Below, one piece after another: positions 1 to 55,145 of a stretch of 64,000 nt of DNA. The position numbers and the translations under genes were made by a program. The number at the start of each line of letters is the position of its first letter. The stretch's first letter is position 1. The notes below the pieces were generated by a model, which saw nothing but the letters and a program-made list of their open reading frames with translations, did not search any database and had not been told where the DNA came from. The stretch lies in assembly GCF_051622035.1 (NCBI RefSeq), contig NC_135366.1, forward strand, positions 687,001-751,000, given 5' to 3'. The stretch is from Arctopsyche grandis (Eukaryota; Arthropoda; Insecta; Trichoptera; Hydropsychidae).

Positions 1-1588
1 CTAACTGGGTATTTCCCAGAATACTGGAAAACAGCCAACGTAATTCCCATACTTAAGCCCGATAAAAGCTCAAAAAACCCGGCCAATTATCGACCCATTA
101 GCTTACCTTGCACGCTTTCGAAAATTCTGGAAAAAATAATCTACACTCGTTTACTTAAAGTCGTAAATAAGAAATTAATAAATGAACAATTTGGATTTCG
201 CACTGGACATTCCACGTCCCAACAACTAACAAGACTAACTGAACACGTGACGAAGAAATTTAATATGAAGAGAAGTACCGGAATGGTATGTCTCGACATA
301 GAAAAGGCCTTCGACACGGTTTGTCAAAATACCAAACTACCTAATTCTCATCATCAAATCGTACCTAACTCGTAGAAAGCTAGAGGTTAGCGTAAATAAT
401 GAATTATCGTCTCCAAAAATAGTCACAGCTGGCGTTCCGCAGGGGAGCTTGCTTGTCCCACTCTTGTTCTCCATATATATAAATGAGTCTAGAGGTAGGA
501 TAATTACAGTGCTATCAATTGTTCGGCAAACCTTTAACAATGCATTTACAACCTTTGAACAATACACGGCCCCCTCAGGCTCCGGTGACTATAAATGACA
601 TACCTATTCCAAAAAACTGTCACATAGCCCTATATGCAGATGATACCGCTTGCTTCACAAGTAGCAAAAAACCAGACACTATTCTTAAAAATCTTGAATT
701 CGCAATTAAAACAATGACTGAACACTTCACTAAGTGGAAAATTCAAATTAATCAAATCAAAACAGACGCCATATTCTTTAGTGTTAGAAAGCATAAGCCA
801 AGTTCAGATCTGAAAATCCCCTCTGGAGAAAGTCTGAAATGGCAGTCAGTAATAAAATATTTAGGAGTAACGTTCGATAAAAGAATGAGATGGGCACCTC
901 ACATTGAGGCAGCGAAATGCAAGGCGATGCGGGGTATATCCTCAATATATCCAATATTGAATCGCCATAGTTCTTTATCAGCGCTAAATAAAATAAAATT
1001 ATATCGCGCGCTCATATTACCATTATTAACCTATGCATCACCTGTATGGAATAACGCCTCAAATACTAACCTTTCCAAGCTCCAAGTAATACAAAATAAA
1101 TCCCTAAAAATAATTTATAATACACCCATATATACTAACCTGAAAAAACTGCATGCCATATATAATATTCCGTTTGTTACAGACATTACTAACAAACTAA
1201 CCAGTAGATTCTATGACAGAATCACTAATGACCATACTAACACACTTGTTAAGAGTCTCGGTGATTATAACAAAATGTCTATACCCTTCAGGTATAAACA
1301 CAGATTACCTAAACACAATCTGCTTTAGGTCATCGACTTTAGAGAGTCTTTAATTAATATTATGTATTAGATGTATTATGAACATTTATAAGGATTGTAA
1401 ATAGGTCTTTGAGCTCTTTTTCCTATTATGCTTTAGATTAACATTAGAATAATATAATACTGTGATTGCTAACCAAATTAAATTAAATTGTAAAATAGAA
1501 AATGATCAGTAGATCAGTAACTATTAAAATAGATATAAGATGTATTGTGAACATAATTTCGTAATAATAAAAAGCATTTAAAAATAAA
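1..1588 (+). mobile_element. Jockey-like non-LTR retrotransposon (3' part, copy 1)
   Basis: The 3' portion of a LINE whose 5' part would lie left of the window; the same element is complete to its truncation point at 25322-28005. It encodes reverse transcriptase motifs typical of the jockey group: a PANYRPISL-type block near 75-105, an EKAFDTV block near 301-320, and the catalytic YADD at about 633-644. The C-terminal part is an uninterrupted frame at 519-1328. Frameshifts and stops occur between about 320 and 520, so it is not an intact polymerase. The 3' end is AT-rich and stops in an A-rich tail near 1588, the same point where related truncated copies end. Confidence 0.85.
519..1328 (+). 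pseudogene. Jockey-like reverse transcriptase, C-terminal part (copy 1)
   Basis: An open frame of 269 codons covering the last third of a non-LTR reverse transcriptase. The YADD catalytic box is followed by the thumb region with a KYLGVTFDKRM block and by the C-terminal LTYASPVW block. The first two conserved blocks lie in another frame upstream with stops between, so this is a fragment of a broken ORF2. Its apparent start methionine is not a real start. The element lies just downstream of, and in opposite orientation to, the ZNFX1-like gene. Confidence 0.85.
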
Positions 1589-1900
1589 AACTATAGGGCG
1601 GGTAAGGTGTGTTGACCGTATCCTGGCCTATTAAAACACGGTTGTGTTTTGAAGAGTTAAGTTATTGTATGTACGAAGGAGTTATGTATATGTAGGTACA
1701 TAGTTGCTCACTTTGGAGAAGTGAGCTGGCTGAACTCCAGAGGTGCAGAATGTTCTCAGCGTCAACGTGTCGCCGTTCTGCTTGAATTGGTGTTTGGTAT
1801 TTCATGTCTGGACGTTGTTGCTTTGCGAAATGAAATCGGCGTTTGGGCGTGGGATTTCGTGCATTTATTCCTACAAAACTTTTTTCAAATTTGAATAAAG
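1589..1900 (+). other. Stem-loop-rich segment downstream of the LINE (copy 1)
   Basis: An island of higher GC content with no coding potential that I could find. It contains a perfect 8-bp hairpin (GCTCACTT at 1706-1713, loop TGGAG, AAGTGAGC at 1719-1726). Two weaker stems follow: GCAGAA at 1745-1750 with TTCTGC at 1776-1781, and ATTTCAT at 1799-1805 with ATGAAAT at 1830-1836. An AATAAA lies at about 1892-1897. It could be the 3' end of another mobile element or a structured RNA; I do not recognise it. The remaining 1901-2313 is AT-rich 3' flank of the gene with AATAAA on the minus strand at 2143-2138 and 2176-2171. Confidence 0.35.
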
Positions 1901-2313
1901 CCTATAAAAAGTTATGATTTAAAAAAAAAACAATTAGGGGGAGTACACCTGTTTCAGACCTCCCCCCCCCCAAAAAATGGATAATAATTATAAAAAAATA
2001 AAAGACAGTGTATAGTTTTGTGGCTATTAAAAATGTATTAAGTATGATTATCAAATACTTATGTCGATTATTTTTAATATTTACAATTAAAATATTATAA
2101 TAAAAAGAATTACATGCAGATAATGTTTGCACATACGTTTATTCCATGTAATATTTTGTAAGTTCTAAATTTTATTAATAGGTTTAATAATTATTAAATA
2201 CATTAATTAAGTAGTAATATGATAAAAAAAATTAAAATAAATTTGCTTGAATTTTGATTTATACTTTGTAAATACATTAATCAAGATGTAATATGAAAAA
2301 AAAAAAAAAAGAC

Positions 2314-5300
2314 TTATAAATAGTTATGTAAATTTAAATTAATCATCATTCCCTCATTCGCAATATCAGAATAGGCTGCATGTGTAGCATTGTCCATCTC
2401 GGCGGCCAAGCTATTGGTGCTAAGAAGTGCATGGTTTGTACCGCCAATTCCACTGCCGCATTCCGGACATAAACTTTTCTGCATTGCTCCACCACACTCG
2501 GTGATACAATACGGATGACCATTCGGACATTTGAACCAATGACCCTGTTTCAATTCCATGGCTTTGACTATCATAGATCTTTCCGCATCTGAAACCTCAA
2601 CTCTAAAAGTAAGCGATTTGAATAAACCTTTCACCATTACTTCAACATGTTTGTCAAAAGATTTAGTCGAAAATATAATCATGCTCAGATTTGATAAAGT
2701 GTCTTTATCTGTATTAGAGTTTGAAAGCCTTTGAGCGACTTCAAATCGGATTATACTCTCCATTCTGGCTAATTCAGTATTGAAATCTTCGATTTGTTGT
2801 TGAGTAACCTTAATTTTGCAATTACACAGGACTCTCAAAATAAATTTAAGTTGATTTATTATGAGGTTAGATTCAATCTGCTGCTCTTCTTTCAGAATTA
2901 TTTCAGATAAACGGTTCAATATAGTTGCTTGTACGATAAAATTCTCAATATCGGGTTTGCTCAGTTGCACAATTTTATTCCGTCGTTTTTTCTTATCTTG
3001 TATATCGTTGATATTGGCAATATGCGAATCTTTCTTTATTTTCATCACAACCGTATTCCATTCAGAAACTAAACTCAATAATATCATTAATAAATTAAAT
3101 AAAATATAATCTTATGTACATATTTACATATGAACTATAATAAAAACCAACCTTTTGCAAATAATTCATTAACTTGCATCTTGGACAATTGATCAATTAG
3201 TTTATTCAGGTCCGCAATTAAATTTTTAATTTTTTTTGGATCACCATAAATCTTTTTCTTGGCATTCTGAACGTCATTGAATGCTGTTTTAATAGCTTTG
3301 TAATATCTTGGAGTATTCATCACATGTGCGCTACAATGTGGACATCGGGGATAAGCAATTTCTCCAGTTTCCAGAGACTTGATCCAATTATCCATACCAT
3401 TCACTTCAATGATATGAGGACAATCAATCAGTTTAACGAATCTAAAACGATACATTTTAAAAATTATACTGCCAATATCATAATTGTAATTATGTAAATA
3501 TGTATGTATATTAATTAACCTTGCATCCTCGTCTTCTTCATTGCCGAAGAAAATCTCTGGCATGTTTTCAGGATTACAAACCCTGCAAATATCTGGACAC
3601 AATTCACCACACAAACCAAGACATCCATGACCACATTTCAGCTTACGAGGGCAAGGCTCAGAGCACGGTATTCTATCACATATTTCGCTGCATTCTTTAG
3701 TGCATTCGCTGTGAACGCAGCGCCGATTGCATTTATGCTAGAATATAATAATAAAAAAACATGTATTAAACCATGCTTTAATAATAAAAAAAATCACATT
3801 GGATTACTAACTTTACACGGTTTACAAGGAACACCACAAGTCGACGGACACTTTGAATGACTGCATTTTACACTGCAAGGCTTACGACACATGCTGCAAT
3901 CTTCCCTACAAGGATCATTACATCTGAAACATTATATAATCCTCTATATACATATAAGCGTTCTTCAGAATGAATATAATGCTAATAAAGAAAATCACTT
4001 CATACATATGTCCACAAATGAGGCGGTTTCCACAAGTCTCCGAGCACGGTTGGTGCAAACGGCCCCTGCATTTGCCGCAAGTGCCTTGACAAATATGTTC
4101 GCAATCTTTCAGAATTGTACGGCATGGCTCTGTGCAATACTCCATTGTCAATATGTTACCAACGGCTCCTGAATGAAAAAAAATACACTTCGAACCAAAA
4201 ACATGATGATACGTATGTTATAAAACAAGCAAATATGTAAAACTTCACCCAAGTTAGAATCACAACACGGTATTTTGAAAACGTGTCCACATATGGATTT
4301 GTAAGGATTAGGAATTTTTTCAATACACGGTTTAACACTGCATCGTTTCATACACTCATCCCGGCATCTATGTCCACATTTTAGTATACAGTTGCAACGT
4401 TTTGAACATATTATTTTTTCCACATCTTCACTGCACTCTATTGGAATAATGTGACCGCAAGATCTTTCCTTTTTTACCTGAACATGAATAGAGAAAAAAT
4501 TAAAATTTCAATAAGGAAATATCTGCAATATAAATACATATAATATTACCGTCACTCTGCAGTTAGTACAGGGTTCGAAGCACTTATTCTTGCAGAAATG
4601 TTTGCATGACATCTTCCTGACACACTTTTTATCACATAATACTGTATTGACATCCATATGGCACGGAACACTATCACTATGCGAACAGTTCATTCTCTTC
4701 TTTTTCATCTGTTCAATAAGTAAACATTAGATCAATCACATTACAAACATAATCAACATCTTGAAACATGAGAACCACATATATTAATACCAGAATAGTA
4801 CAAGGATCGCATTCTTGATGACAAAGCTTTTTACAACGATGTTCTCCAACGCATCCTTTATTATTACGTCCGCATTCAAATTTGCATTCATACTGAAAAT
4901 CAACAAAAATAAAAAGTCATTTAAAGCATCGATATTGTGTTAAGAATACTGAAAATGATAGCACTGACTTCCAAATGCTCGGGATCGTCATCCTTATGAC
5001 ATAGTTTAGTACAGGCATGTCCACATGGTAATCGATCAATACATTTAATCGAACATTTTGGACTACCTCGGGCAATGTAGCAAAGTAATTTAACCTGCAA
5101 TTTACATGTTATATTATTATGAGTTGTATTATTACACATTTGAATAGGTTTATCCGCTTTATTTACCTCATGTAAGCACTCGGAGAATGTATGTAACACT
5201 TCTATCCGGCATTGAACATTGTCAGGTTTGACACTACACATAATTTTGTTCGTATGCCCACATTCAAAAAGCTTCTCAACTATTTCAGAACATTTGCAAG

Positions 5301-8300
5301 GTTGACAGCATAAAAGTTTGCATTTATGACCCACAGAACAATCTCTGCAATTAAAAATAAACAATTGACATTGTTTTCAGATCAAATAAGTTTAGAAAGC
5401 TCGTTTTATTAATAATAACCTTTGGCATTCTTCATTGCATTCGTATTTTTCGTGCTTCTCCAAGTCAACGTGGCAAAATTGTAGACAATTGTGACCACAC
5501 TTTAAAAGAACATTGCACCGATTTTGGCAGCCACCTTCGAGAACTTTATCAAAATCTTCAGGCATTTTGATCTGCATTTTACACAAAAAATTTACATTTT
5601 ATCCACTATTAATATATTATTTCTTGCTTGAAAGCCATTTTAAAAATGTAGTATCTCATGTCACCCATGCTTTTCAATCTGTATTCGGAAATGGTGTTTA
5701 AACCAGGCAGTCAATAGCCGAATAGGAAGCGAAATAATTAACAATATCCGTTTAGCTGATGATATGGCAATACTGACTGGGAGTGCCGAAGACCTGCAAT
5801 CGTTGTTGATCGCAATCGACCAATCAAGTCAAAAATGGAGTCTACCCATTAATATTAAAAATAATAAAGCAATGATTATATGCAAAGAAAAGACAGATCC
5901 ATTAAACCTGAGTGTGCGCGGACAAATGATTGAACAGGTCAATTTTACAAATAAGTAGAAGGATCGAAATAGCAAGAAATGCCTTCAACAGCATGAAAAG
6001 TGTTTTGCTGTCGAAATTTGTCTATGAAATTGCGCTTAAGAATCCTATACTCCTGTGTATGGTCGGTGTAGCTGTACGGATGCGAAACATGGACGCTTTT
6101 AGTGGCAAGCCTGAACAGGATAGATTCCTTTGAAATGTGGTGTTACGGGTGGATGTTAACACTTTGACAACGGGGCGTATTCAATATGAATGTGCGCGTG
6201 GAGCGGGACGAATTCGCGACTTTTCGCAAAAGACACTTTGTATCCAAAAAAATGGAATAACTTTTTAACTATAGCATATTTCTACGCGAAACTTGGAGAA
6301 GTTATAGAATATGATATTATCTAAATTATTAACGTCTAATTTTACAAAAATATTATCTCTTCAGGGGGTGGTTCTGAAACAAATGCACCCTATAAGATTT
6401 TATGTGTTAAATATGTATGTATTTTGTTTTTGTAAAATTTAACATCTGTCCCGATGTGACACATATCTACTCAATACAAAAAAAATGGGTTAAAGATTTT
6501 ACGACTGTCGAAATGATGTACTATGAAAAGATTCGTGTGTTTTCAATGTGGAGCAACTTTAACTAATAAAACATGAGCCGCAGCATGGAGATTGTATACA
6601 TACACAATATACATATGGAAATGTAATACATATTTTATGTAGTCGTCCAAAGCAGTGATCCACAACCAGTAAGCGCGTTTTATTTTTTACACGATTATAC
6701 TTTTTCTTTCTATTTCAGTTTCTATCATATAACAATCTTTTTGAATTCAAATTATAAAAATAAAAATATTGTATTACAACGTAGAATATCGGCTTTTATA
6801 TGTAAAATAAAATTTATATAAAGGTGCTTCCAAAACATTGATAATCGCTTAAATTTACTTGGAACCTATTTTTTTGGAAGGTTATTCTAATTAGAGTCAT
6901 GAATTTTATGGAGTCGTGAACAGCCGAGAGGCGAGAAACAGTGTTGTGACAAATAAAGTCAAAATCAAAAATGTGTAAATTTCAATATGTATATAAAAAA
7001 AACAATTAGTCCCAGCGATTAGCACATATCAGTATTTCGATAATTATGATAAAACAATCCTTTTAAATTTCATTTCCAATAAAACAAACCAATTTTGCAA
7101 GTATAAGTGATGAATAAAATTCAAAAAATGATAAAAAATAAGTTCCGCTGGTAATCGACGACAGTAGTATTGTTCAGAATTTAATAAGCAAGGGTGGTGA
7201 ATGAATAAAAAAAAACACGTTTTTAAAATATGTATAGTACTTAGACAATTTATTTGAAGATTTTATTTATAGAAAGTCATAAAATAAAGAAAACTCAAAA
7301 AAAGGTACATTCAACAAAAAAATCAAATTCTTGAATAAATAAGTACATAAATTAAAGAAAATAAAAAAAGTCAGTTGCAAGAATGAAAAATTATTTTGAA
7401 ATGTACATAAAGTAAAGAAAACTAGAATAATCATACACAAAAATAAAAAAAGTCAAACATATGAATAAAATATTACATAAAACAAAGAAAATTAAAAAAA
7501 TCAGTTACAAAAATATTTTAAAAAGTACGTATAGTAAAGAAAATTAGAATAATCAAAAATAAATAAAAAAGCCAAACATATGAATAAAAAATAAAATATT
7601 ACATAAAACAAAGAAAATAAAAAAAAAACAGTTAAAAGAGTCAAAGAAAAAGCACGTAAAATAAAAGAAAACTAAAAAAATCATACACAAATAAAAAAGT
7701 CAAGCATGAATAAAAAATAAAATAAAATATTACATAAAACAAAGAAAATTGAAAATGTCACGGGTACATAAAACAATAAAAAATCAATACACGAGGCAAA
7801 AAGGAAGAAAACTAATATTTATTTTTTAAATGGTAATCTTTAAAACACTTCTCCATGTGGAGTGGCACTTTACAGGTCTCACACATATAACTTGTCTCTT
7901 TCCGTAATTTATATTTTATATTCTTCTCACAATTTTACCACCTTCACGCATATGAACAGGTTGATGTTCGATTGTTTTTGAAAGTCTATGGGCTGGATCA
8001 AAATGAGCAGCAACATGTGTTGATGTTGACGGCTCATTTATATTTAATACTACTATTTTAGGTTCAATCCACGATTTTGCAAGTTCAACCATATAGTCGT
8101 GGAATTTTAGTTTTTTATTTGGGTTCAGATTTTGATAAACCTTAAATGAGTTTAAAATAGCACAGTGTAATAAATAGAATGTCACTCTTTTTGTCCACTT
8201 CATTGTTTTACGGAAAATGGGGTAATACGAAAGGTACTGATCGGCTAAATCTACTCCACTCATATACATGTTGTAATCTATAATACTCTTTGGTTTTATT

Positions 8301-11300
8301 ATAGGAGTATTTGTCCTATAACTGATTTTCCCGGTCTCGGTCAGTGCCGAATTATGTATTGTGGAAATCCTCTTTATTTCCTTTTTTTTGTAATTTTTCC
8401 ATTTCTCAAGTAAAATTTCTCCTTTTCGTTGAAACGCAACTTGGTCTATTTCGAGTCGAACACATTCTAATTTTTTCTGCTATCAAATTCGTAGCGAGTT
8501 GTACACTGTTATAAAAATTATCGGTGTACAAATGGTGCCACTTGTTGGCAAAAGGCGTCATCAAATTCATTACCGTTGTCTGTATGTCACTGCCTCTGCC
8601 ACAGTATAACTGGAAATTTGAAATGTACCCTGTCTTTGCCTCACAAACCATTCTATTCAAAATACCGTATTTAATGATCTTCGCTGGATTGTAGACCCGG
8701 TATTTGAACCTTCCCCTCCAAGGTATCATTCCTTCATCCAGTGATAGATTTTTGGAAGGCTCATAGATCGACCGAAATTTTTCGAGGAAGTAGTCGATGA
8801 TTTTTTGGACTTTAAATAGCTTTGGTGCGTCGTCTGGCATATTACTGTTATCCGAGAAATGCAGAAAGGTCAGTATTTGCATAAATCTATCTCTTGCCAT
8901 AGTTTTCCTGAATATTGGCGTTTCAATGTATGGGTTGGTGGACCAATAACTTGAAATAGAGTTCTTTCTAACAAGGCCCATAATTAAAATCAACGCCAGC
9001 ATCTTCTTAATTTCTTCTACTGTTACGTCGATCCATTTCTTTCCATGCTCTGGAATTTTATATTTATATCCATTCGTTGCATGATACCTATTTGTTTCTC
9101 GTACAATATCCTCCAATAAGTCATCACCAATATATAAGGCCGTGACTTCTTCAATGTTATCAGGATTTTGGGGGAAAATTTTTACTCCGGGATTTCCCTC
9201 AAATGCCTCATTATCTCGAACGGGATCCATTTGAGACCAATCCACGGTAATTTCATCTTCCGAGTCACTTGATGACATATGCATTATGCGTGGGCCACCT
9301 CGATTTGAAATAAAATCAGAATCAGAATCATCACTCTCGTCATCATCAATATCTGATTGACGGTCTTCATATACTTCATTTATAAAAGTATCATCCATTT
9401 TGGCGTTTGAAATAAAATAAAATTTAACAGCAAAAAGCTTCACAAAAATTGCACGACACTCGCGAGAACAAAATAAAATTTGTCCTTTCCCGGCGACTTT
9501 CAGCAGATAACTGACGAAATAAATAAACGACCGAAAAAATGAAATAGTTTATGAAAGCAACCGAATATAAAAGAAACTGATTTTTTTTGAAAATTCTTTG
9601 TTTAATAAATGTCGGGAAATACACTTTCACACAATAAGATTGAGTGACGAAAGGTTCATAAAATAATAAAACTGAATCTTCCGTCGTTTACTGATGGCGG
9701 CAACTTAAATGCGTGCATACAAAAAAAACTTTCTATTGAAGAAACTGCTCTCAAACAGAAAATAAAACGTCATTGGCAAAAACCAATAAAAATAATGAAG
9801 CGAGAAGATTTTGTTTGTACCCAATTTTGTCGATGCTTACCTTTTTTCTTAGTAAAATTTCCCCGAAAGTATCGAACCCATGCATTTGTCACGATTTGCC
9901 TTTGATAAAAAAAAAGCCGCCGCTGTACTTGTGACGCTCTTTAGGCCCATAATTTATGGGGGTAATAGAGAAGTTTGGAAAGCAAAATGGAGTGTTAGTG
10001 TGTTGATAAAACATTATTTTTGCGTAATTATTAACGGAAAAATATATGTTTGCGTTCCACGAGTTGCGAATCACTTGCAATTCGCCTAAGCATTGCGCGT
10101 ATATTCAAGGTTGTGATATGATACTCCGACAGCGGTGATATTTTAATTAAATAAAAATACAATGAGAATTTTGTATGAGATCATGTATGTAATTACTAAG
10201 AATCAATTGAAATCAATAAAAATCAATGAAAATTTAAAATAAACCAAAATCTATAGCACAAGTTCTTAAAAAATTAAACGTTTTCTTTTTGTTCGATATG
10301 TCGGTGAAATTTAAAAAATATGATCATTTTTTTTCGAAATAATATTGTATAAACCCCAATTGAGACATCGATATTATGATATTATGGCGCGTATATGTGT
10401 GGGATCCCATCTCAAAGTGCGCAGTATCGACGACGTGGAATCCACGTTCCCCGGCACAGCGCAAGGTTTACCGAGGACGTGGATTCCGCGTTCCCCGTCG
10501 TTAACGAGTTAAGATCTCATGGATGGACCATGCAAGGAACAAAACGCTCCTCCAGCTTCTTCATAAAAAGAGAGAGCTTCTTGACACGATAAAGTGCCGT
10601 AAGATGGAATATTTTGGCCACGTTATTTGCGGTCTCAAATATTGCCTTCTACAAACAATCATAGAGGGGAAAATAGAAGGTAATCGGTGGCTTGGGGGAA
10701 AGAAGCTCTCTCTTGACTACGGAACATCAGGTCATGGATGAGACTCGAAAAATTGTATCGGCTTGTCCATGATAGGGCGGAATCCACACCGGCCATAAAC
10801 GATGTCTGTCCATGGTCAGTGCCAGTACCAGTAATTTATTAGATAATTTACTTGTCCATTTTAGGACTATTTTCCAGTTCATCGGTAAGCCGTAATACGA
10901 CTCCCTAGCGCTGAGCACATCTGAGTGATATTATCTTCAAAAATTGCCTTAGTGGCGTAATGCTATACTATGTATTTATTTAATTTGATTTTATTTAGCT
11001 TGTGAATAATTAATTTTAAATCAAAATCTTCAGGATACTAACTGTCGAGTCGTTTCAGTTAACGTTACGATGGTGATCTATTAATAATGGCACATTCTGA
11101 TAATATGGAAAAGCCATACCTCTGTTATAATGTTATGGTTTTGACACTGTAGTGGGATTGACAACCCTATAGAATCATGCTCTATTAAAGTTGTGTTGAT
11201 TTTCTTCCACAATTCACTTGCATTGACGAGATTATTCATATTTCCAATGATGAAAAATCCTAAAAAAAAAAAGCATATGAAAATACCATTTTACAAATGC

Positions 11301-14300
11301 AGACAAGTTTTTTAATTTTCGAATACCTTCTTTTGCCCTAGACAGAGCTACACAAACACGATTGGGAATATTAAGAAAGCCAACATTGTTATCTAAATTG
11401 CTTCTAACCAAAGTTAGCAGTATGATTTTACATTCTTCTCCTTGATAATTATCCAATATGCACATACGAACATCTTCAATCAATTTAATTTTTTTTTTCA
11501 GCTAAAAAAATTCACAACAAATCATATGAATATCTGGCGATACATACATAAAAATCTGCATTTACTACTTTTAGCAATCGATATTGTATATTTAAATTGA
11601 TTATTAAATGATATTGTCGGTTTCAATTTTAACCCAAAATGTATAGATTTTTTATCTCACCCCTCGAAGATGAAACATTTGACCTGAATAGGCACTTAAA
11701 ATAGTGATATCACGAGGATGATATCCTTGTTGAATCAAATATACTGCTAAACGCAAAATGAACTCTGCCTCATGTGCATTCTTGTGACTTGAAAGGTCGT
11801 CATCCTGCAAATTTCAGTGAAATAAAAGAACACTTATATACATATGAATATGTATGTCCACATGTTAAAATAATATACCTTAACTTCTGGAAATTCATGG
11901 GTAATAAAAAATAGATTCTTTGCGACCCCCTTAACATTGGGATAGTTCAAAACGGATGGATGATTTTCCAAAACAGGATATATTGATGGTGTAATCAAAC
12001 TGGCAATTTCAGGTCGCATTCGATGTTGCACTCCCAACTGGCAGATATTTTTTCCATTTTTGAACATACGTTCAAAGAGAGATATCTCTAGGTTGAATTT
12101 ACGTCCAAGTTGATAAGAAGCGGTCGTGGGTCGCAGCTGTTGGTGATCACCTGATAATGATCACAAAATATACATATGTAACTGTTTCCACCTCACGAAA
12201 GGAAAATTGTATTGGTAAATATCTTATATAATACATATATGAAATTGTAAGTATAATTATATATTTATAATTATGTAACTTATATTATTTACTATTTGGA
12301 GTAAATTGAAAGAGACTGTTTTCGAGAAAAAATACTATTTTAGTAAAATTAGACGTGTACATTTAATGCAAGACTTATATGGAATTATAAAAGATGCATC
12401 TCACCAATCATAATAACGTGTTTGCAATTTTCGTTCAAGTTTACTACAATATGTGACTCAAGAACTTCGGCTGCTTCCTCAATTACAACTAAAATAAAAT
12501 TTATTCCATTTAGCAACAAAAAATGGCATTGTATAGTATGAATAGATCGCTATATCAACCTATCGACGGAGACAAAGAACAAAGCAAAGGTCTCAGACGA
12601 GCGGCCGCAGTCGTCGTCAATCCAATCACGTGTGCCTTTTTCAATATCTGAATATCGCTCATTGTGTTAAAGTCATCATACAATGCGTAAAACGTGTGGT
12701 ATTTTTCCTACAAATTCAAATATATGTATATTATAATAAGAAAAAATGTGGAAACCATCGATAGCTATGGTAGACCTGCTCCTGGACTCTTTCCAATGTA
12801 ATAAACTAATCACTCGAGGACAATGATGTACAACTAATCTTTATTCAATGGATATCCTACTATAAGCGAAATAGCAAAATCTTGGTCGAAAGTAAAACCA
12901 ATAACACTAATTTGATTATGGAGAAAGACTCTTCTTAATGTGGAAATAGATTTAGTGGTTAGATCGCGATTCAAATGATCCGAAATTTTAGTGGAGAGTG
13001 ATGCAGATATCATTTCTATTGTCAACTCAAACAATAGAAACCATATAAAAAATTGATAGTTCGGATTATACGTGTTTTTCAATTATCCAGTCTCGTACTC
13101 CGCAGTATTAGGCCGGATACTCGAGAGTACGCTAGGATCAGGTCTTGTATTAAATATGAACTGGTAAGTCACAAACTATAAATTAGTCGAGAATAAACAA
13201 TCTACATACATACGTATATGGAAAACAATCGCTTAAATACATAATACATAATACTAAATAATTTAGAAATAAAATTAATATAAAAACACATAATTTGAAA
13301 ATAAACTACACTTTTTGAAATTGCCAAATACAAAAGTTTAATAATACTTTAATATATAATAAAATATAGTGTTGAATGTATACCCGTAATTTCAAAGTCA
13401 AATTGAAAAATATATTTTTCAACTCTGCACACCAGTATCTATATAATTGCCAACGTTGATTCAAGTTTAAAGATTTAGGAGAGAGGTGAGAGAAGTCTTT
13501 CATTTCATCTTTATCATATGTAAGCTGGTTCTGAAACCAAATAGCAATTAGTTGTAAATACATTATACTCATAATCATGCTATTAGTGACCCTCGTATTG
13601 TTAAGGGTGTCTCAATTAGGGTTCTCAATCGAATATTCGAATTATCTGCTCGATTTTCAGCTATACGAATATTCAAATTATCTATCGAACATTCGTTTAT
13701 ATTATTTCGAATGAAATTCGAAAAATATCCTGCAGTCAGGAAGTCGTTTTTTCCTTTTAATATACTAGAGCGAACGTGCCAATAATCCATGGTCCTTTTC
13801 CATGCACCTTTATATTGTTTTGGATTTTTTTTTTATCATTATTTATTATCCATTTTCTAATAGTTGACTGACAAACAGTAGCAAATATAGCTAGAAAGTA
13901 TCGAAAGCGAATTTTTTTATATTTGTTGAAAGTCACTTGTATATCCGCTTTAAATTGCTTTGATTTTCTCATAAATTTGGAAAAAAACGGCTTTTTAATA
14001 TCAAAAAGTATGCAAAATATAATAATAAATTTGGCATTATCCCTTTGACTTCCTCACTAATCAGTAACTCACACAGTATAATTATGTTATGCATATTTTG
14101 TAAAATTCAAAAGATTAAAAGATTATAAAAATAATTAATGATTGATTAAACTAATTATCTTCTTCTTCTTGTTAATGCCTTGTCCGCATCCGGACGTTGG
14201 CGACCACCTCGTCGATTATTTGAAGATATCCCCATCGGTCTTCAGCGGCTCGGAACAGCTCCTCGGCGCTCATATCGGTCCACATGCGCATGTTTCGAAG

Positions 14301-21660: not shown

Positions 21661-22052
21661 GGTCGGAAACGTGCACCAACTGGTTGGATAAAGCTGTTGA
21701 AATTCTGGTGTTCAATAGCAGTACCGGCTTCTAAAATCCCGAACAATCGGTGCAATACTACAGTGCTACTCAAATAGTGGTACGCATACGTAAACAGACC
21801 GGACAAGAGGGGGGGGTTCCAGTCGGTGATATTTTGGAATTCCACAAAATCAAATTATTTTTCAGAATAGTAATGCTTCTTGTGACTATGTAAATATGTG
21901 GTTCGGTGATTAAAACCCAAAAATGCAATCAATCGAAAACTACCCACGCGAAATATTGCACTAACAAGAACTCGAGTGCCAGATTTATTTATTACAATCA
22001 ATGTACACTCGTCATTACAGATCGCTCCAATGTGACGAGTATACGATAAAGG

Positions 22053-22162
22053 TCAGAATACAATAATACATAGAATATAATAATTAATCAAGTACCGAAT
22101 CAAGTACAATAAATAATCAAGTACAATCAGAATACATAGAATATAATAATTAATCAAGTACA
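22053..22162. repeat. Short direct repeat (copy 1)
   Basis: The words TACATAGAATATAATAATTA and TCAAGTAC occur twice in order, near 22066-22095 and 22132-22161, about 66-74 bp apart. A second diverged pair (ATAGAGACATC and ATAGAGACGTC) follows near 22175 and 22255. Confidence 0.6.
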
Positions 22163-22810
22163 GAAATAATAATCATAGAGACATCAATGGATTATTTTTA
22201 GATTTTGTGCACAATTATTAATACAATTTGTATACACACAATAAACACGAAATTATAGAGACGTCTATAGATTTCAGACTACTGTGCATAATTTCTACAA
22301 ATTATACACACAGACTTGTGACAACAGAAAATGATCTATTACCAATTTTCAGGAACCGTTTCAACAATGATCAGATAAAATTGGCAAACTCTGATAGAGA
22401 AACGATCGATTTGGAGTCACAAAACCCCCAAATCTAACCAGCAGTTTATTTTTATTTTTAATTTTAGATTAAATTATTTTTAAATTATTTTTTAATTTCA
22501 GTTAATTTTTATTTTTAACAAGAAAATTTATATATAAATTTTATAAAAAAAAATATTTTTAAAAAATTATTTTTTTTAAGAGTTAATATTTAAAATTAAT
22601 AATTTAAAGAAATTTAAATTTAGTACCATTAAGCCAAACTGCTGGCTATTTCGCTTATTTGCTGGCTATACAGATATTCCGTATTCGCGATTTTTGCGGC
22701 AACGATTGTCGTGCGCGCGATCGCAATTTGCGCAATAATCCGTTTACCCGTAAATTATAGTATGTATGATGTGATTTTTATGTTTTTCTCAGAAACCTTT
22801 TGATTTATTG

Positions 22811-43700: not shown

Positions 43701-46700
43701 TCCTCTGTGTAGGTTCATATATGAACCTCATTATGGCTTCCCTCATAGGACGAATGAAGTCCTCCCTCATTAAACGAAATTGAACATCTAAGTAATGATC
43801 GACACTGTTATATGCCCCATTAATTATATTCGGACGTAGAAAAACGTGGTTTTTCGTACTAATTTCAGTTACATCGGGACAGATTCGGCTTTTTCTAAAA
43901 TCGTTGGGCACTTCTAAATCTTCATCAGCTCCCTTTCGAGAATGCTTAAACAAAAAATATATATATTAAAACACATTGCATAATCCATATATTAATATAT
44001 GTATATTTAATTCCTTAAATGTACATACATATATACATATGTAAGTGCTAGATATATTATGACAATGGTTTAAAATTGAGAAAGTAAGATAATGTTACTT
44101 TGTTAAAATTGAAATTGGTCGGAAATTTTAACCTTAGGAAGCTTTGAAAGTTAGCGTGGATGGTTTTAAATATCTTGGGTGCTATCTGGGTGAAACGTGT
44201 GGAAAGTGGAAAGGAAATTCACGTTAGAGTGGAACAAGCAAGAGCTGCATACATTCTTGAAAATGAAAAAAGTCCTAACCACACGTGATCTCAGTATAGC
44301 ACTCCAACTGAGACTTCTACGATGCTACGTTTTCTGTATGGGACAGAAGCATGGACCCTGACGGATGCCACATGCAAGAAACTAGAGGCATTTGAGATTT
44401 GGACATACAGAAGGATGCTGAGAATCTCATGGATGGCACGTCGTACCAATGCCGAGGTGCTTGCCCTGATGGGAAAACATGTCGAAGTGTGAAAAGGCGT
44501 AAATTGGAGTACTTCGGCCATGTGATGCGGAACGAAAAATACGATCTCCTGCGCCTAAAAATCCAGGGGAAAATCGTAGGCCAACGCAGTCGGGGCAGGT
44601 AAAAAACATCATGGCTAAAGAATCTTCGGCAGTGGAACGACCTCAGCACCCGAGCATTATTCCGAGCAGCAAAGGACAAAATAAGAATGGGACATCTAGT
44701 TGCCGGCACATGAAGAAGAAGAATACTTACTTATTATAATAACAGTCTAATTTAATGTTTGTTTGACTTTATTTCAAATAAAACTTGATTGAATCATTAC
44801 CTATATTTATTTTAAAATATACAGATGCAAAAGTCTAATTATCTCGAAACAGGCCACTGTCATTATAAACAGATCATACATACAAAACTGATCAATAGAC
44901 AATGTAATAGAGATGTCCCAATTATACAATTGTGTAGTTCAAAATTAGACTGTGGCGACTCTCCTGCATTTCAAAAACACTAATCAAAAATAATAAATTA
45001 AAAAGAAAATCACCAATTTTTCAGCAAACTCTTCCTTTATTGGAATCAGTCGCATTTGAATGTTGGCTAACGTCTGCAGCAGTTCTTCTTGATAATTCAC
45101 TTTATGTCGATCTTTTAAATTTTGTAAAGTGATTTTACTGAAGTCGATCAACTTTGACAATATGCCCAAAGCCAAGTCCGGCGTCGAACTGATGACGCAA
45201 TCGTAAAATGCGAAGACGTTTTTCCAAAAATCATCACAATCGTCCCAAAACAATTTATTTTGCATCTTCATATCCGTCGTAGCATAAGGTAAGTTCAATA
45301 TATATTTCTCAAACGTATTCAAAAAGTTCGACTCACACAACTTAGTCATAATGTTCGTTTTCGATTCGTCAAACATAACTCCACACACCTTAGATATGCA
45401 TTTCATAAAAAGGACAATATTATCCGGCTTTATCTCCTTCGTCAACGTGTTGTCGAACTTCCTATTCTGTTGGCTGAACACCATAAGAATTTCTGATCCA
45501 TCCTTAGAAGACATATCAAGGAGCTGCTTGAATCCGAATACCACATGACTCATATCCATATTGTTGGAGCCGCCTTTGTTATTTTGATGATTGGACTGAA
45601 ATTTACGATGCTTTGTTGGAGCGATCATAGGACCTTTTTCTTTTGTGACAACTAAAATAAATAATAAAATATATAAGTTAGTCACACTTGGAGATAACAT
45701 TCATAAAGTCTAACTTAGTTATGATTCAAAACAGACCAACTGCATACTCTGTTAAGATTAATATGATTGCATAGCAAAATATATCAGCAAAATTATAAGA
45801 ATTTAAATATAATCTAACTTGGAGAGTGATTAGAAGAATTTTGGTTTCTATGCAATAAGCCACCACGGCTGTTTCCTCTTGAAAAATCAGAGTCATTCCT
45901 TTTCCCTACAAAATATATAAACATATATTATTTAATTGAATGAGCTTCCGAACTAAATTAAATATTATTTGCAACAAAAATCTCACCTGGTGGATGCTGA
46001 TGGTGATTATTGTGCTGATGGGATGAACTAGCACTTTGTATTTGATTTTCCAAAGTTGTATTCGGTCTTCCTAAGTTGAAAGGCATTCCTATTACGCAAA
46101 AAATTGTACATTAAATTTCAAGCAAACACACATACATATGTACATACAAATTATATGTGTAAAATTGACATTCTATATTATAACATGATAACTTTCATCC
46201 ACCTGAATAGCTACTAAAACATCAAATTCATGATATGAATTACTACAGGTATTCAAGTTTGAACTCCAAACAAATCGAATCATCGAGCTATCCAGACAAT
46301 CACTCTATAAAATTAAATATAAAATTTAAGCTAACTTGGAGAGTGATTAGAAGAATGTTGGTTTCTATGCAATAAGCCACCACGTCTGTTTCCTCTTGAG
46401 AATCCAAAGTCACTCCTTTTCCCTGCAAAATATATATTTATTTTTTATTTTTAAATGCTTTTTATTATTACGAAATTATGTTCACAATACATCTTATATA
46501 TATTTTAATAGCTACTGATCTACTGATCATTTTCTATTTTACAATTTAATTTAATTTGGTTAGTAATCATAGTATTATATTATTCTAATGTTAATGTACA
46601 GCATAATAGGAAAAAGAGTTCAAAAACCTATTTACAATTCTTATAAATGCTCATAATACATCTAATACATAATATTAATTAAAGACTCTCTAAAGTCGAT

Positions 46701-48077
46701 GACCTAAAGCAGATTGTGTTTAGGTAATCTGTGTTTATACCTGAAGGGTATAGACATTTTGTTGTAATCACCGAGACTCTTCACAAGTGTGTTAGTATGG
46801 TTATTAGTGATTCTGTCATAGAATCTACTGGTTAGTTTGTTAATAATGTCTGTAACAAACGGATAATATATAAACATTAGGTATCGCACGGATAGAAGGA
46901 AATTTTATTTTAACGTTAACATATTTATACATGAAAGAGAGCAAAAAAATATATTCAAATAATACATTCCTTGTTTTTTTTTTTATAAAAATAAGCAAAA
47001 ATCATCATTATATTAATTCTTTACAAATTTGCTATTCACTGATGGAGTAAGCATATTGCACAATATATTATAATATTTACATATGTTTGCATGTTTATTA
47101 ACTGTGTCTACTCAAATAACCATGATTGGTGACAATCATAAATTAGCAAATACATACATTAATATAAATATTATATAGTATATACAGTAACAAAAGACAC
47201 AGAGAGATCCCTGTATTGGTTTGATCCTATTGAGATTTAATAAACAATACCAAACAATTTTTTAAATCTAAATTATAAAAGGGGTATTTTGAACTGTTAA
47301 TATTTGGTATAATTTAATATAATATTTTCTTTCATATTTCTGAATAGTTGAATTTTTTTAATACATAATTGAGACATTTTCCATCAAATTTATAGGGATT
47401 TGAAATCTTTACGCTTGTTAATATTGTCTCTAATGTCCGTAATTAGAAACAGACATAGTCATGTAGAAACACAAGGTCTCCAATATCCATACATCGGGTA
47501 TTGGTATATGATTGTAGTTTCGAATTACTAAAGTGTACATTAGTAATTCAATATTCGCATACATTGATAAGCAAAAATAAATAAATACGACTTAAATGCA
47601 AAGTTGGAGTTCGAATCGCACATTTTAACGACTCTGACTCCATGGGTCCCCTCTCTGTTAATGTACAGAATTACAAACATAGATCATCTCTTATTATATC
47701 CTTAAAATATTGAAAACAACGACCGACCTGGGTGAGCGTTGGTTGTTGGTTGATTCCCACGTGATGATCCAGCATTGGCATCAAGGTTTTTTGCTTTCGG
47801 ATATCCACCAGAGTCATTCAAATCTACGAAAATATAAAGAGCAGTGTTTAAGATCTCGGAGACCTTTTCATATTATTTGAACCTAGATTTTTTAGATGGA
47901 ACTAATCCACTTGAAAAGTATATGTAGTTTATTTTATCCATTAATTTGTTTGCTACTACGCACATATTAAATTAGATGAATTTAATTATTTTGAATATAT
48001 GGAAGTCAATTTGAATGGAACAAACCTAATGTTCGGAGACGACGATTTTCTCGGCCTGGGCCAGGTTCATCCTCCAT
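28731..48077 (-). CDS. ZNFX1: NFX1-type zinc finger and helicase protein, ZNFX1-like (gene A, copy 2)
   Basis: The second copy of the 28-exon gene. All exon boundaries of copy 1 apply with 26,417 added (start codon at 48077, last exon 29485-28731). Every open frame in the exons is identical to copy 1, so the predicted 2,080-residue protein is the same. The Walker A exon is 42973-42029 and the RZ-finger exon is 29485-28731. The only base difference I found between the copies is intronic (40426). The gene is intact, so if the duplication is real the organism carries at least two full doses of this protein from neighbouring, identically oriented genes. The upstream 240 bp and downstream region are also identical, so regulation should be alike. 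Confidence 0.92.
32067..32572 (+). mobile_element. RTE-like LINE remnant, left part (copy 2)
   Basis: Identical to 5650-6155. Reverse transcriptase blocks with ADD are readable near 32169-32195; the remnant is interrupted by the piggyBac-like element at the TTAA at 32573. Confidence 0.75.
33642..34207. repeat. A-rich minisatellite, about 120-bp unit (copy 2)
   Basis: The same array as at 7225-7790, with the same number of units as far as can be read. Confidence 0.6.
34229..35815 (-). pseudogene. piggyBac-like transposase, frameshifted (copy 2)
   Basis: The same as 7812-9398, with the same frameshifts near 34823-34867 and 34335, so the enzyme was already dead when the unit duplicated. Confidence 0.85.
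36930..37232 (+). mobile_element. RTE-like LINE remnant, right part (copy 2)
   Basis: Identical to 10513-10815; it continues the remnant at 32067-32572 across the piggyBac-like insertion and includes the MEYFGHV block near 37021. Confidence 0.75.
40035..41977. mobile_element. Inverted-repeat-bounded insertion in intron 10, hAT-like ends (copy 2)
   Basis: The same as 13618-15560. It contains the only base found to differ between the two units (C at 40426), which creates an extra in-frame Met on the minus strand of a meaningless short frame. Confidence 0.5.
40575..41792 (-). mobile_element. RTE-like LINE fragment with (GAA)n 3' tail (copy 2)
   Basis: Identical to 14158-15375: a truncated reverse transcriptase with YADD and broken frames. 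Confidence 0.8.
44137..44723 (+). mobile_element. RTE-like LINE 3' fragment (copy 2)
   Basis: Identical to 17720-18306, in intron 6 of the second ZNFX1-like gene. Confidence 0.75.
46442..46873 (-). mobile_element. Jockey-like LINE, 5'-truncated copy (copy 2)
   Basis: Identical to 20025-20456, in intron 2 of the second ZNFX1-like gene. Confidence 0.85.
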
Positions 48078-48469
48078 GGTCGGAAACGTGCACCAACTGG
48101 TTGGATAAAGCTGTTGAAATTCTGGTGTTCAATAGCAGTACCGGCTTCTAAAATCCCGAACAATCGGTGCAATACTACAGTGCTACTCAAATAGTGGTAC
48201 GCATACGTAAACAGACCGGACAAGAGGGGGGGGTTCCAGTCGGTGATATTTTGGAATTCCACAAAATCAAATTATTTTTCAGAATAGTAATGCTTCTTGT
48301 GACTATGTAAATATGTGGTTCGGTGATTAAAACCCAAAAATGCAATCAATCGAAAACTACCCACGCGAAATATTGCACTAACAAGAACTCGAGTGCCAGA
48401 TTTATTTATTACAATCAATGTACACTCGTCATTACAGATCGCTCCAATGTGACGAGTATACGATAAAGG

Positions 48470-48579
48470 TCAGAATACAATAATACATAGAATATAATAA
48501 TTAATCAAGTACCGAATCAAGTACAATAAATAATCAAGTACAATCAGAATACATAGAATATAATAATTAATCAAGTACA
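48470..48579. repeat. Short direct repeat (copy 2)
   Basis: The same pair of repeated words as at 22053-22162. Confidence 0.6.
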
Positions 48580-49227
48580 GAAATAATAATCATAGAGACA
48601 TCAATGGATTATTTTTAGATTTTGTGCACAATTATTAATACAATTTGTATACACACAATAAACACGAAATTATAGAGACGTCTATAGATTTCAGACTACT
48701 GTGCATAATTTCTACAAATTATACACACAGACTTGTGACAACAGAAAATGATCTATTACCAATTTTCAGGAACCGTTTCAACAATGATCAGATAAAATTG
48801 GCAAACTCTGATAGAGAAACGATCGATTTGGAGTCACAAAACCCCCAAATCTAACCAGCAGTTTATTTTTATTTTTAATTTTAGATTAAATTATTTTTAA
48901 ATTATTTTTTAATTTCAGTTAATTTTTATTTTTAACAAGAAAATTTATATATAAATTTTATAAAAAAAAATATTTTTAAAAAATTATTTTTTTTAAGAGT
49001 TAATATTTAAAATTAATAATTTAAAGAAATTTAAATTTAGTACCATTAAGCCAAACTGCTGGCTATTTCGCTTATTTGCTGGCTATACAGATATTCCGTA
49101 TTCGCGATTTTTGCGGCAACGATTGTCGTGCGCGCGATCGCAATTTGCGCAATAATCCGTTTACCCGTAAATTATAGTATGTATGATGTGATTTTTATGT
49201 TTTTCTCAGAAACCTTTTGATTTATTG

Positions 49228-49777
49228 AGCTGAAATTTCATATCTACGAGTTTAAGCTTAATATCAAGTTGTATATAAAATTTGGTAAGCATCCGTCAAC
49301 CGAAAGTGACAGTTTACTCTTGTTCGATTTTTCTTCCACTATTTTTTTCGACCGCTTAAGCATGTGTGCTCTTCACGAAAAAATTCAAGTGAAATTATTG
49401 TATCAATGTGATGAAAATAAAAAAAATGATTAAATTTTATAACCCGAAAGTGGGATTTTTTCCTCTTAGAAAGGTCAAAAATGTTGTGGCCACTACTCTG
49501 TCCACACCCCTGAACGTATCAAGCTGAAACTTTATATTTGTATTCTTTATGTACTAACTTAGAGCTGATAATGTTTTGGTCAGAATTCGTAAACCGGAAG
49601 TAGTATTTTTTTTTTAAACAATATTACATTATTTTATTTTGACCTTTTAAATTATTTTAATCTTCTTGATTTTTATTTATTTATTTATAAATTTATTTAT
49701 TGTGTATAATACTGATAGTGATTTTAAGTAATAAAAAAATTTAACAAAATCCAACAACCGGAAGTAGATCTTTTGTC
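49228..49777. repeat. Degenerate repeat with AACCGGAAGT motif (copy 2)
   Basis: The same as 22811-23360. Confidence 0.55.
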
Positions 49778-50218
49778 TTGTGCAAGTCTCAATACATTTG
49801 CGCTCAATTTGTATCGAAAATGCTGTCATAGCTATTAGTATTTCATAATGCTGCCTGTATGTGTGAATGTGTCTGTACGGTTCAATATCGAATATTGTTT
49901 TGTCACCTTATTATATTCCTCAAATTCATAGATAAAGTCGTAGGTTGGTCACATCCGAATTTTTTTATTATAATACATATATATTAGCACTGAAATAGCG
50001 AGTATATTTTTCATATTATATTTACACAGTTTTGGGAGAAGGCAAGTTTATATTTCACTGCATTTCTTACATCTTATCTCGTCGAATCTAGATTTAGTCG
50101 AGTTATGAATCTCCTCTTAAAAAATTGTGGATATTTGATACGCATTGTATACGATATTTTATCTCCAACGTAATGGCAGACGAAACATTAACGTATATTG
50201 ATGACCAAAATGTACAAT

Positions 50219-50592
50219 ATGGCAAAGTATGAAAACGATCGGATAAGAGATAAGAGAGATAAAAAATTACGACTTACACGAAAACCATGTGAACTGTATA
50301 AGAGGTAAGTAAAAAGAGGTGATTTCCGTATTTCACTAACAAATTTGAGCCAGATATGTACATATAAATAAACTCGCTAGTTTACATCAGGCACAAGGAT
50401 CACACTAAATAAAATTATCTTTCAATTCATTACTTTCAATTTATTATGTTTAAAAAAAATATTGCGTTTATATATTATATATGTTCAAATTTATAATTAT
50501 AAAATTTACATAATATATAATATTTTAAATATATACTTTTTTCCAGAAAATATGGGGGGAGACACAGAAAAATATATGGTGTAGATAATTAA
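50219..50592 (+). CDS. Candidate small two-exon basic peptide (copy 2)
   Basis: An identical second copy of the hypothetical 43-residue gene at 23802-24175 (exons 50219-50304 and 50547-50592). Identity of the whole unit means this copy adds no independent support. Confidence 0.2.
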
Positions 50593-51803
50593 TATGTACA
50601 TATGAAAATATATCATATATATTCTTCGATCAAAGCACAATTATCGTGGTTACATGAGAATTTATTTGGCCCACTCATTGAACAAAAACAAAATCTGTTA
50701 ATGAAACACAAACAGAAGTTGATTTTCGCATTTTTCTTCCCCACTTGTGATATGCCATTTTACTTATTTAAATATAAAATACGCGCGATTTTAAGATTGA
50801 GCCTAAACTTGGGTCTTAACTATCAATATTGATATCACGGCTGTCTTAAATGATTAATTATTGCAAAAATAAATTCAAAATTACTATAAATTGCATTTAA
50901 TTTAGACCAGATCCCGAGGTGATGCTTTTGAAGATTCGTCAACACACTTGTTTTGTTTGTATTCATTCGATTATTAGTATCTATTAGCTATAAGTTAACT
51001 ACAATTACTTTTAACCTGTCACCATGAAAGCAATCAGAATTGTTAAATATTTTGTAAATTATTGATGTCTTAATGAATTTCAATTATAATGTAATATGTA
51101 AGTAAAAACATTACAAATTAGTGAGAATGTATCATTTAAAATAAATTACTAATGCCTGCACAGTTTGAGATGCATTTTGTAAGCATTTTTGCAATGATGA
51201 GTAATCGTGTTGGGTACTCCCCGAAGAGAAAATACCAATGCTCATATTTTTTCAGTGTTGTCACTCTTAAAAAAGTTTGGAAAAACCATGGCTGTGTAGT
51301 CGCCTCAAAACTTACCGACTTCGACCCTAACTTGAAACGACTTGCAAACGTATAAAATTGTTAATGAAAAAAAAAATAGCAATTTTCAAAATATAATTTT
51401 TTCGTCTTTTTTCACATTTTCCAGTCGGCATTTTTTTCATTTCCCTACTACATATGGTAAACGGAACATCTGACACTCGAGTTCTCGTTAGTACAATATT
51501 TCTCGTGGGTAGTTTTCGATTGATGGAGTTTTTTGGGTGCCAAATGATCCATGATCGTGACTTGCGCGAGATAGCTTTTTACAAAATAATCACCGAACCA
51601 CTACATATGTATGTACATATATGGCACCCGTATGTACATATATGGCCAGGTTGGTTTTCAGTGCTCCGGATTATTTAACAATTCAATAAAAGGTACATTT
51701 TGAATAACATTAAGAAAAAACAAACAAACTATGCCAATAAAACGATTATTGGCATCCGATCTTTACAAAATATTTAACATTGGTAGTTCGGTAGTGGTAG
51801 CTG

Positions 51804-52511
51804 GTGACTAATGCCAAACATCCGTTATGGAGTTGCGTAAACACTGACCAACAAGGCACAACTCTTTTTAAATACATTCAACTAACAGATACAATCTTAC
51901 TTCATCCGGATACATACACACACTATCCCACAAATAACTCACAACCATCCACACTAGATCTTGTCCTTGTCAAGAACTGCCCAAAAATATCGACACCAAA
52001 TGCCCTTCAAACCCTGTCGTCTGATCATCTCCCGATAATCTTCTCAATCGACGGGAAACCCAAGGAAATCATCAAGCATAGTTGGGATTACGGGAGAGCT
52101 AACTGGCGAGAGTTCAAGTCGTACATAAATGACCAAACTATTCTAACTTCTACCACACTCACAAACAAAACAGAAATCGACAGCTCCATAATACACCTGA
52201 CGGAATCAATAACTCGATCCAAACACCTTCACATACCTAAGACACAATACATTGAACACAAACTAGAGATAACTGACTTTGTTGCAAATCTAATTAAAAG
52301 TAAAAATAAACTCCGTAAAATTTGGCAAACATCAAAAAATCCAGCATTGAAAACATTAATAAATAAGCTCACATATCAAATTAAAATTAGAATCAAAGAA
52401 ATCAAAAATGAAGCTTGGTCTAAAAAATTAGAAAAATCAAGCTCAGTTGATGGCTCTCTATGGAAATTAGCTAAAGCGATTCGCAGGACAAAAACTCGAT
52501 TCCTCCGTTAG
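51804..52511 (+). pseudogene. Jockey-like endonuclease fragment (copy 2)
   Basis: The same 235-codon fragment as at 25387-26094. Confidence 0.8.
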
Positions 52512-53352
52512 ATGATGCAGGAATCTCAGTGACGCGTGATTGCGACAAAGCAGAACTATTATCAAAATCTTTCCAAAAACATCACACACTCACACAACAT
52601 TACAATCACATACCAACGCATAATAAAGTCAACCGGTCCATTAAAATCATCACAAAAACTCCCACTAACAGTAATAAAAATATAAAATTGGTGCATCCGT
52701 GTTAAATCCAAAATATAATACGTAGTTTAAAAAATAAAAAGGCACCTGGGCGAGATTTAATAGATAACATCATAATCAAACAACTTCCGTTTAAAGCTTT
52801 AGTCTCACTATCTAAAATATTCAACGCGTGTTTACTAACTGGGTATTTCCCAGAATACTGGAAAACAGCCAACGTAATTCCCATACTTAAGCCCGATAAA
52901 AGCTCAAAAAACCCGGCCAATTATCGACCCATTAGCTTACCTTGCACGCTTTCGAAAATTCTGGAAAAAATAATCTACACTCGTTTACTTAAAGTCGTAA
53001 ATAAGAAATTAATAAATGAACAATTTGGATTTCGCACTGGACATTCCACGTCCCAACAACTAACAAGACTAACTGAACACGTGACGAAGAAATTTAATAT
53101 GAAGAGAAGTACCGGAATGGTATGTCTCGACATAGAAAAGGCCTTCGACACGGTTTGTCAAAATACCAAACTACCTAATTCTCATCATCAAATCGTACCT
53201 AACTCGTAGAAAGCTAGAGGTTAGCGTAAATAATGAATTATCGTCTCCAAAAATAGTCACAGCTGGCGTTCCGCAGGGGAGCTTGCTTGTCCCACTCTTG
53301 TTCTCCATATATATAAATGAGTCTAGAGGTAGGATAATTACAGTGCTATCAA

Positions 53353-54162
53353 TTGTTCGGCAAACCTTTAACAATGCATTTACAACCTTTGAACAATACA
53401 CGGCCCCCTCAGGCTCCGGTGACTATAAATGACATACCTATTCCAAAAAACTGTCACATAGCCCTATATGCAGATGATACCGCTTGCTTCACAAGTAGCA
53501 AAAAACCAGACACTATTCTTAAAAATCTTGAATTCGCAATTAAAACAATGACTGAACACTTCACTAAGTGGAAAATTCAAATTAATCAAATCAAAACAGA
53601 CGCCATATTCTTTAGTGTTAGAAAGCATAAGCCAAGTTCAGATCTGAAAATCCCCTCTGGAGAAAGTCTGAAATGGCAGTCAGTAATAAAATATTTAGGA
53701 GTAACGTTCGATAAAAGAATGAGATGGGCACCTCACATTGAGGCAGCGAAATGCAAGGCGATGCGGGGTATATCCTCAATATATCCAATATTGAATCGCC
53801 ATAGTTCTTTATCAGCGCTAAATAAAATAAAATTATATCGCGCGCTCATATTACCATTATTAACCTATGCATCACCTGTATGGAATAACGCCTCAAATAC
53901 TAACCTTTCCAAGCTCCAAGTAATACAAAATAAATCCCTAAAAATAATTTATAATACACCCATATATACTAACCTGAAAAAACTGCATGCCATATATAAT
54001 ATTCCGTTTGTTACAGACATTACTAACAAACTAACCAGTAGATTCTATGACAGAATCACTAATGACCATACTAACACACTTGTTAAGAGTCTCGGTGATT
54101 ATAACAAAATGTCTATACCCTTCAGGTATAAACACAGATTACCTAAACACAATCTGCTTTAG
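53353..54162 (+). pseudogene. Jockey-like reverse transcriptase, C-terminal part (copy 3)
   Basis: The same 269-codon fragment as at 519-1328, with YADD near 53467-53478. Confidence 0.85.
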
Positions 54163-54422
54163 GTCATCGACTTTAGAGAGTCTTTAATTAATATTATGTA
54201 TTAGATGTATTATGAACATTTATAAGGATTGTAAATAGGTCTTTGAGCTCTTTTTCCTATTATGCTTTAGATTAACATTAGAATAATATAATACTGTGAT
54301 TGCTAACCAAATTAAATTAAATTGTAAAATAGAAAATGATCAGTAGATCAGTAACTATTAAAATAGATATAAGATGTATTGTGAACATAATTTCGTAATA
54401 ATAAAAAGCATTTAAAAATAAA

Positions 54423-54734
54423 AACTATAGGGCGGGTAAGGTGTGTTGACCGTATCCTGGCCTATTAAAACACGGTTGTGTTTTGAAGAGTTAAGTTATT
54501 GTATGTACGAAGGAGTTATGTATATGTAGGTACATAGTTGCTCACTTTGGAGAAGTGAGCTGGCTGAACTCCAGAGGTGCAGAATGTTCTCAGCGTCAAC
54601 GTGTCGCCGTTCTGCTTGAATTGGTGTTTGGTATTTCATGTCTGGACGTTGTTGCTTTGCGAAATGAAATCGGCGTTTGGGCGTGGGATTTCGTGCATTT
54701 ATTCCTACAAAACTTTTTTCAAATTTGAATAAAG
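54423..54734 (+). other. Stem-loop-rich segment downstream of the LINE (copy 3)
   Basis: Identical to 1589-1900. The segment that follows, 54735-55145, is the AT-rich 3' flank of gene B and shows the first differences from the other two copies. Confidence 0.35.
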
Positions 54735-55145
54735 CCTATAAAAAGTTATGATTTAAAAAAAAAACAATTAGGGGGAGTACACCTGTTTCAGACCTCCCCC
54801 CCCCCAAAAAATGGATAATAATTATAAAAAAATAAAAGACAGTGTATAGTTTTGTGGCTATTAAAAATGTATTAAGTATGATTATCAAATACTTATGTCG
54901 ATTATTTTTAATATTTACAATTAAAATATTATAATAAAAAGAATTACATGCAGATAATGTTTGCACATATGATTATTCCATGTAATATTTTGTAAGTTCT
55001 AAATTTTATTAATAGGTTTAATAATTATTAAATACATTAATTAAGTAGTAATATGATAAAAAAAATTAAAATAAATTTGCTTGAATTTTGATTTATACTT
55101 TGTAAATACATTAATCAAGATGTAATATGAAAAAAAAAAAAAGAC

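Follow-up and report, generated by a model that had tools for sequence, protein, structure and literature searches.

Genes and repeats at the locus

The window, meaning the whole stretch of 64,000 nucleotides that was analysed, holds as assembled two head-to-tail copies of a ZNFX1-like gene (gene A), followed on the right by a diverged paralogue (gene B). All three are encoded on the minus strand, and their positions are given in Table 1 together with those of the repeats. The DNA looks eukaryotic, because long non-coding stretches interrupt a series of blocks whose matches follow the order of one protein, and from the character of the gene and the transposons we presume that the cluster is probably of arthropod type.

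Table 1. Features of the window, with the basis of each assignment or a remark
Feature	Position	Strand	Basis or remark
Repeat unit, copy 1	1..26417		Phase arbitrary; the window opens inside a LINE
Repeat unit, copy 2	26418..52834		Offset comparison and 31-mers
Third partial copy, start (zone 1)	52835..54969		Identical to 1-2135 and 26418-28552
Zone 2, continued homology to gene A 3' end (28553-29001)	54970..55416		6 substitutions; A run differs by 2 bases
T at 14009, C at 40426	14009..14009		The one mismatch of copy 1 against copy 2
Gene A copy 1, ZNFX1-like	2314..19283	-	Approximate outer limits of coding ORFs; Pfam and structure match
Gene A copy 2	28731..45700	-	Copy 1 limits plus 26417
Gene A RZ finger ORF	2314-3087	-	Pfam PF20173
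Gene A AAA_12 pieces	within 11235-12160	-	Pfam
Gene A AAA_11	in 15597-16562	-	Pfam
Gene A ZNFX1 domain	in 16948-17226	-	Pfam PF25396
Gene B, diverged paralogue in tandem with gene A	55146..64000	-	Same blocks, Pfam; 5' end past the window
Gene B RZ finger ORF	55146-55928	-	Pfam
Gene B AAA_12 pieces	within 61877-63066	-	Pfam
LINE remnant; pieces of endonuclease and RT, frames shifted	25384..28010	+	Spans the seam between copies 1 and 2
Transposase pieces (DDE_Tnp_1_7), two frames	7919..9443	-	Pfam; between gene A coding blocks; same at +26417

Read from about 19283 down to 2314, the open reading frames (ORFs) of gene A carry, in this order, the ZNFX1 domain (57.6 bits in Pfam), AAA_11 (46.1 bits) of an SF1 helicase core, AAA_12 (52.5 bits, with a second piece that at 26.0 falls just below the cut-off of 27), a Cys-rich region and a C-terminal RZ-type zinc finger. 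The scores of the finger were 81.7 bits (gene A) and 81.5 bits (gene B), against a cut-off of 27. Of the 26 proteins submitted to Pfam, 12 had no match (2 of 8, 5 of 10, 4 of 7 and 1 of 1 by batch). The N-terminal ORF of gene A (18567-19283) matched no family when searched alone, and the Cys-rich pieces matched none, zf-NF-X1 included, at E values up to 1.

When the pieces of gene A were joined by hand into a query of 1904 aa with approximate splice sites, the top solved match was chain A of PDB 9q9z, a ZNFX1 structure (E = 6.5e-162). The alignment is made of two colinear stretches, at query residues 31-572 and 764-1160, with the part between them unaligned. The first aligns in order to residues 231-800 of 9q9z, weakly at its N end, and may include an N-terminal ARM-type region. 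Together the two stretches cover the N-terminal region and the helicase and extend into the Cys-rich region, near whose start the chain ends. Judging from the position of the Cys-rich pieces and from this partial alignment, they would contain NFX1-type fingers. As predicted from pieces with approximate splice sites, gene A is plausibly complete and intact, and the immune-type gene proposed in the sequence-only reading was borne out as ZNFX1 homology, both by the Pfam domains and by 9q9z. Viral contigs were also scanned for relatives of the helicase exon, and none of the eight pattern matches was related.

Near the 5' end of gene A, two direct stretches of 115 bp (19388-19502 and 19905-20019) are 91% identical and have similar open peptides; an acceptor-like TTTTGCAG lies ahead of the second one, and the pair is possibly a duplicated small exon. 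The 3' flank of gene A contains a 37-bp direct repeat (2195-2305, 89%), which is also found in the flank of gene B. Gene B adjoins the array on the right, and its block order is that of gene A as far as the window shows.

The LINE lies downstream of gene A, with its 3' end at about 1593, 28010 and 54427. That it runs across the unit boundary chosen in the sequence-only reading is a coincidence, the boundary being arbitrary. Two 5'-truncated copies of the LINE 3' end (about 95-96%) were also observed, one at 20022-20455 in the 5' region of gene A, antisense to the LINE downstream of that gene, and the other at 62580-62786 between gene B coding blocks, in the same orientation as the LINE. The DDE_Tnp_1_7 transposase pieces we take to be piggyBac-like. 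Between gene A coding blocks there is, in addition, an AT-rich tandem repeat of 122 bp in 2.9 copies (7386-7755, with its copy 2 equivalent at 33803-34172), and on the minus strand at 14245-15395 an RT fragment (RVT_1, 39.7 bits) is located in the likely gene A intron that also holds the 14009 difference.

Extent and identity of the repeat

Direct comparison over 28,552 aligned positions showed that 26418-54969 equals 1-28552 at an offset of 26417, with one mismatch and zero indels, a length of match that excludes chance as its source. Shared 31-mers gave the same picture, with 28,631 pairs in the window at offset 26417, 2,245 at offset 52834 and 157 at the next largest offsets. The offset, the coordinates and the single substitution reported by the sequence-only reading are right. 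So is its count of 2.08 copies for what the window shows of the array, whose left end is outside it. The one mismatch, T at 14009 and C at 40426, is probably intronic, because the helicase ORF and the next coding-looking block lie on either side of it and it is upstream of an acceptor-like TTTCAG. The window contains no N, and the seam between the copies is gap-free.

Past the identical stretch, the first mismatches are at 28553 (C/T) and 28555 (T/A), and the register at offset 26417 is lost at about 28726, by a 2-base difference in an A run. Homopolymers of at least 8 bases in 1-28552 have equal lengths at this offset in 30 of 30 cases. Equal homopolymers had been claimed for all copies; this holds up to 54969, as compared between copies 1 and 2, and fails beyond it, where the third partial copy has, just after the identical stretch ends, 13 A in place of the run of 15 A that copies 1 and 2 have in common. 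At a mutation rate of 2.8e-9 per site per generation, the neutral age of copies 1 and 2 would be about 6,800 generations (95% range about 170-38,000), a figure that depends on a borrowed rate, that conversion would reset and that is not relied on here.

Comparison of genes A and B

Over 1009 codons in 14 blocks, genes A and B differ with a dS of about 0.96 and a dN of about 0.17, both somewhat inflated because 8 of the 14 blocks have stops at their ends and run slightly into introns. In the last exon, synonymous sites are saturated over the first 156 codons; over the last 100 codons, dS is 0.07 and dN is 0.025 (4 synonymous changes in 60 sites). The last 90 or so codons and the 3' flank are about 98.7% identical, the similarity running on through the flank until dense differences begin at 29003/55418. 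On this pattern we read genes A and B as a mosaic whose common 3' end was acquired by exchange, and gene B as an old paralogue of gene A in a cluster that recombines and has exchanged 3' ends. The exchange is the one part of these results that goes beyond the sequence-only reading, and it is independent of the number of unit copies because both versions are distinct within the window. A mis-join inside gene B may, as a formal alternative, be the source of the mosaic. Purifying selection on the RZ finger, a curated conserved domain, might also keep the tails alike with no exchange at all. This is exceedingly improbable and was rejected, because the synonymous sites of the last 100 codons and the non-coding 3' flank are near-identical as well; moreover, the similarity drops sharply just upstream of the tail.

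The edge of the repeat, at 54969/54970, falls inside the tail shared by genes A and B, and divides it into two zones. Zone 1 has 0 substitutions in 2135 positions and zone 2 has 6 in 449 (Fisher p = 2.7e-5, or 1.5e-4 without the one substitution that defines the edge), the upper limit of zone 2 having been picked by eye after the substitutions were inspected. Judged by these counts, zones 1 and 2 differ in age, and the simplest reading would be that the exchange of tails came first and that a recent event then both made zone 1 uniform and doubled the gene A unit.

Origin of the array

The sequence-only reading left the choice between a very recent duplication and an artefact of assembly, and is supported in part. 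On balance we favour a real and recent head-to-tail duplication of the 26.4-kb unit, produced by unequal homologous recombination in a ZNFX1-like cluster, and consider it rather probable; to about the same degree we believe that the duplication is real and comprises two or more units. Genes A and B would earlier have acquired a common 3' segment, by conversion or by crossing-over within the last exon. At this segment, together with the LINE, chromatids would later have misaligned and crossed over, giving an extra gene A unit. The recombining segments would be the LINE plus 3' end to the left of gene A and its counterpart to the left of gene B, and 54969/54970 would mark how far to the right the recent event homogenised the sequence. 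A substrate for recombination is available, because the 3' end of the right-flank paralogue is near-identical to that of the unit, a feature that the sequence-only reading had not seen. Homologous segments are present at the right edge of the unit (54970-55416 against 28553-29001), and the same would be expected under a graph loop. Since the encoded ZNFX1-type RNA helicase would be the same for both copies of gene A, dosage is the likely effect. A single crossover between unlike segments would make the middle segment a hybrid and leave copy 1 with the old left version, whereas zone 1 of copy 1 is identical to that of the third copy, not different. This identity would be explained by old versions that matched fully before the crossover, or by an array with at least one unit ahead of copy 1.

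The repeat structure found here is also the one that yields an assembler loop, which counts against a real duplication. A single gene A may lie between two near-identical segments of LINE plus 3' end, with a graph loop walked twice or haplotype copies chained, and we think such an artefact possible, though we doubt it. The layout suits a loop and would leave the same trace as a duplication, the homopolymers are equal in every case compared, the lone difference could be one heterozygous site, and false duplications within a scaffold are documented in PMC9516828. The marks listed there are half or very low depth, gaps between pairs on the same scaffold, discordant linked reads and one-copy k-mers; the seam in this window, by contrast, has no gap. 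Two haplotypes at a heterozygosity of at least 0.05% would differ at 13 or more sites on average, and the probability of at most one difference in 26,417 bp is about 3e-5 at an assumed 0.05%, an expectation that an inbred or clonal animal would change. Unless the animal is of that kind, the unresolved haplotypes suggested by the sequence-only reading are made less likely by the single difference, and haplotype duplication is probably not the leading form of artefact. Even under an artefact, zone 1 would have to be truly repeated to the left and to the right of gene A, and the C at 40426 is 14.5 kb from the first base specific to gene B, which should be within the reach of long reads. The unit itself, at 26.4 kb, is longer than ordinary HiFi reads, so the copy number may be off in either direction.

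The array may also be a longer real one, with many gene A units among which repeated unequal exchange and gene conversion maintain uniformity; the window would then show its right end, some units having been collapsed in the assembly. This we regard as unlikely, more so than an artefact; it overlaps with the reading of a real duplication, and the weights given to the several readings therefore do not sum to one. It is in keeping with the identity of zone 1 in copy 1 and the third copy, as if copy 1 were not the first unit, with a window that opens inside the array and with the exchange of tails between genes A and B as a sign of a recombining cluster, but its evidence is that of the window, from base 1 rightward.

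Significance and comparison with known systems

PMC11959080 links ZNFX1 homologues with innate immunity (in vertebrates) and with the inheritance of small RNAs (in C. elegans), and by analogy the ZNFX1-like gene might have an immune or small-RNA role in this animal. The literature on ZNFX1 in insects and invertebrates names no tandem ZNFX1 array in the portions available. More speculatively, and in our view improbably, the locus would be a fast-evolving arthropod ZNFX1 cluster in which the copy number of gene A is in flux and the 3' end with the RZ finger is exchanged with an old paralogue, that is, an antiviral locus that shuffles dosage and domains. Such loci are known for other immune families. 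A real array would capture a ZNFX1-type gene in the course of tandem amplification and of exchange at its 3' end; an assembly loop would be a warning that gene counts for clusters of this type are unreliable. Recent tandem duplication by recombination is of a well-known kind and ZNFX1 is a known family, and the event is ordinary overall.

Like the false duplications described in PMC9516828, the copies described here are adjacent and near-identical; unlike them, they have no gap between them and too few differences for the usual haplotype (heterotype) type. In comparison with the solved ZNFX1 (9q9z), gene A is colinear in two stretches and has the Pfam domains ZNFX1, AAA_11, AAA_12 and RZ, but it is tandemly duplicated beside a diverged neighbour, and its Cys-rich pieces are without Pfam zf-NF-X1 at E values up to 1. 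Tandem gene amplification by unequal crossing-over between repeats is a general mechanism. Although the crossover itself is deduced here from assembled sequence, the array resembles the products of that mechanism in its near-identical head-to-tail units and in the homologous segments at their edges.
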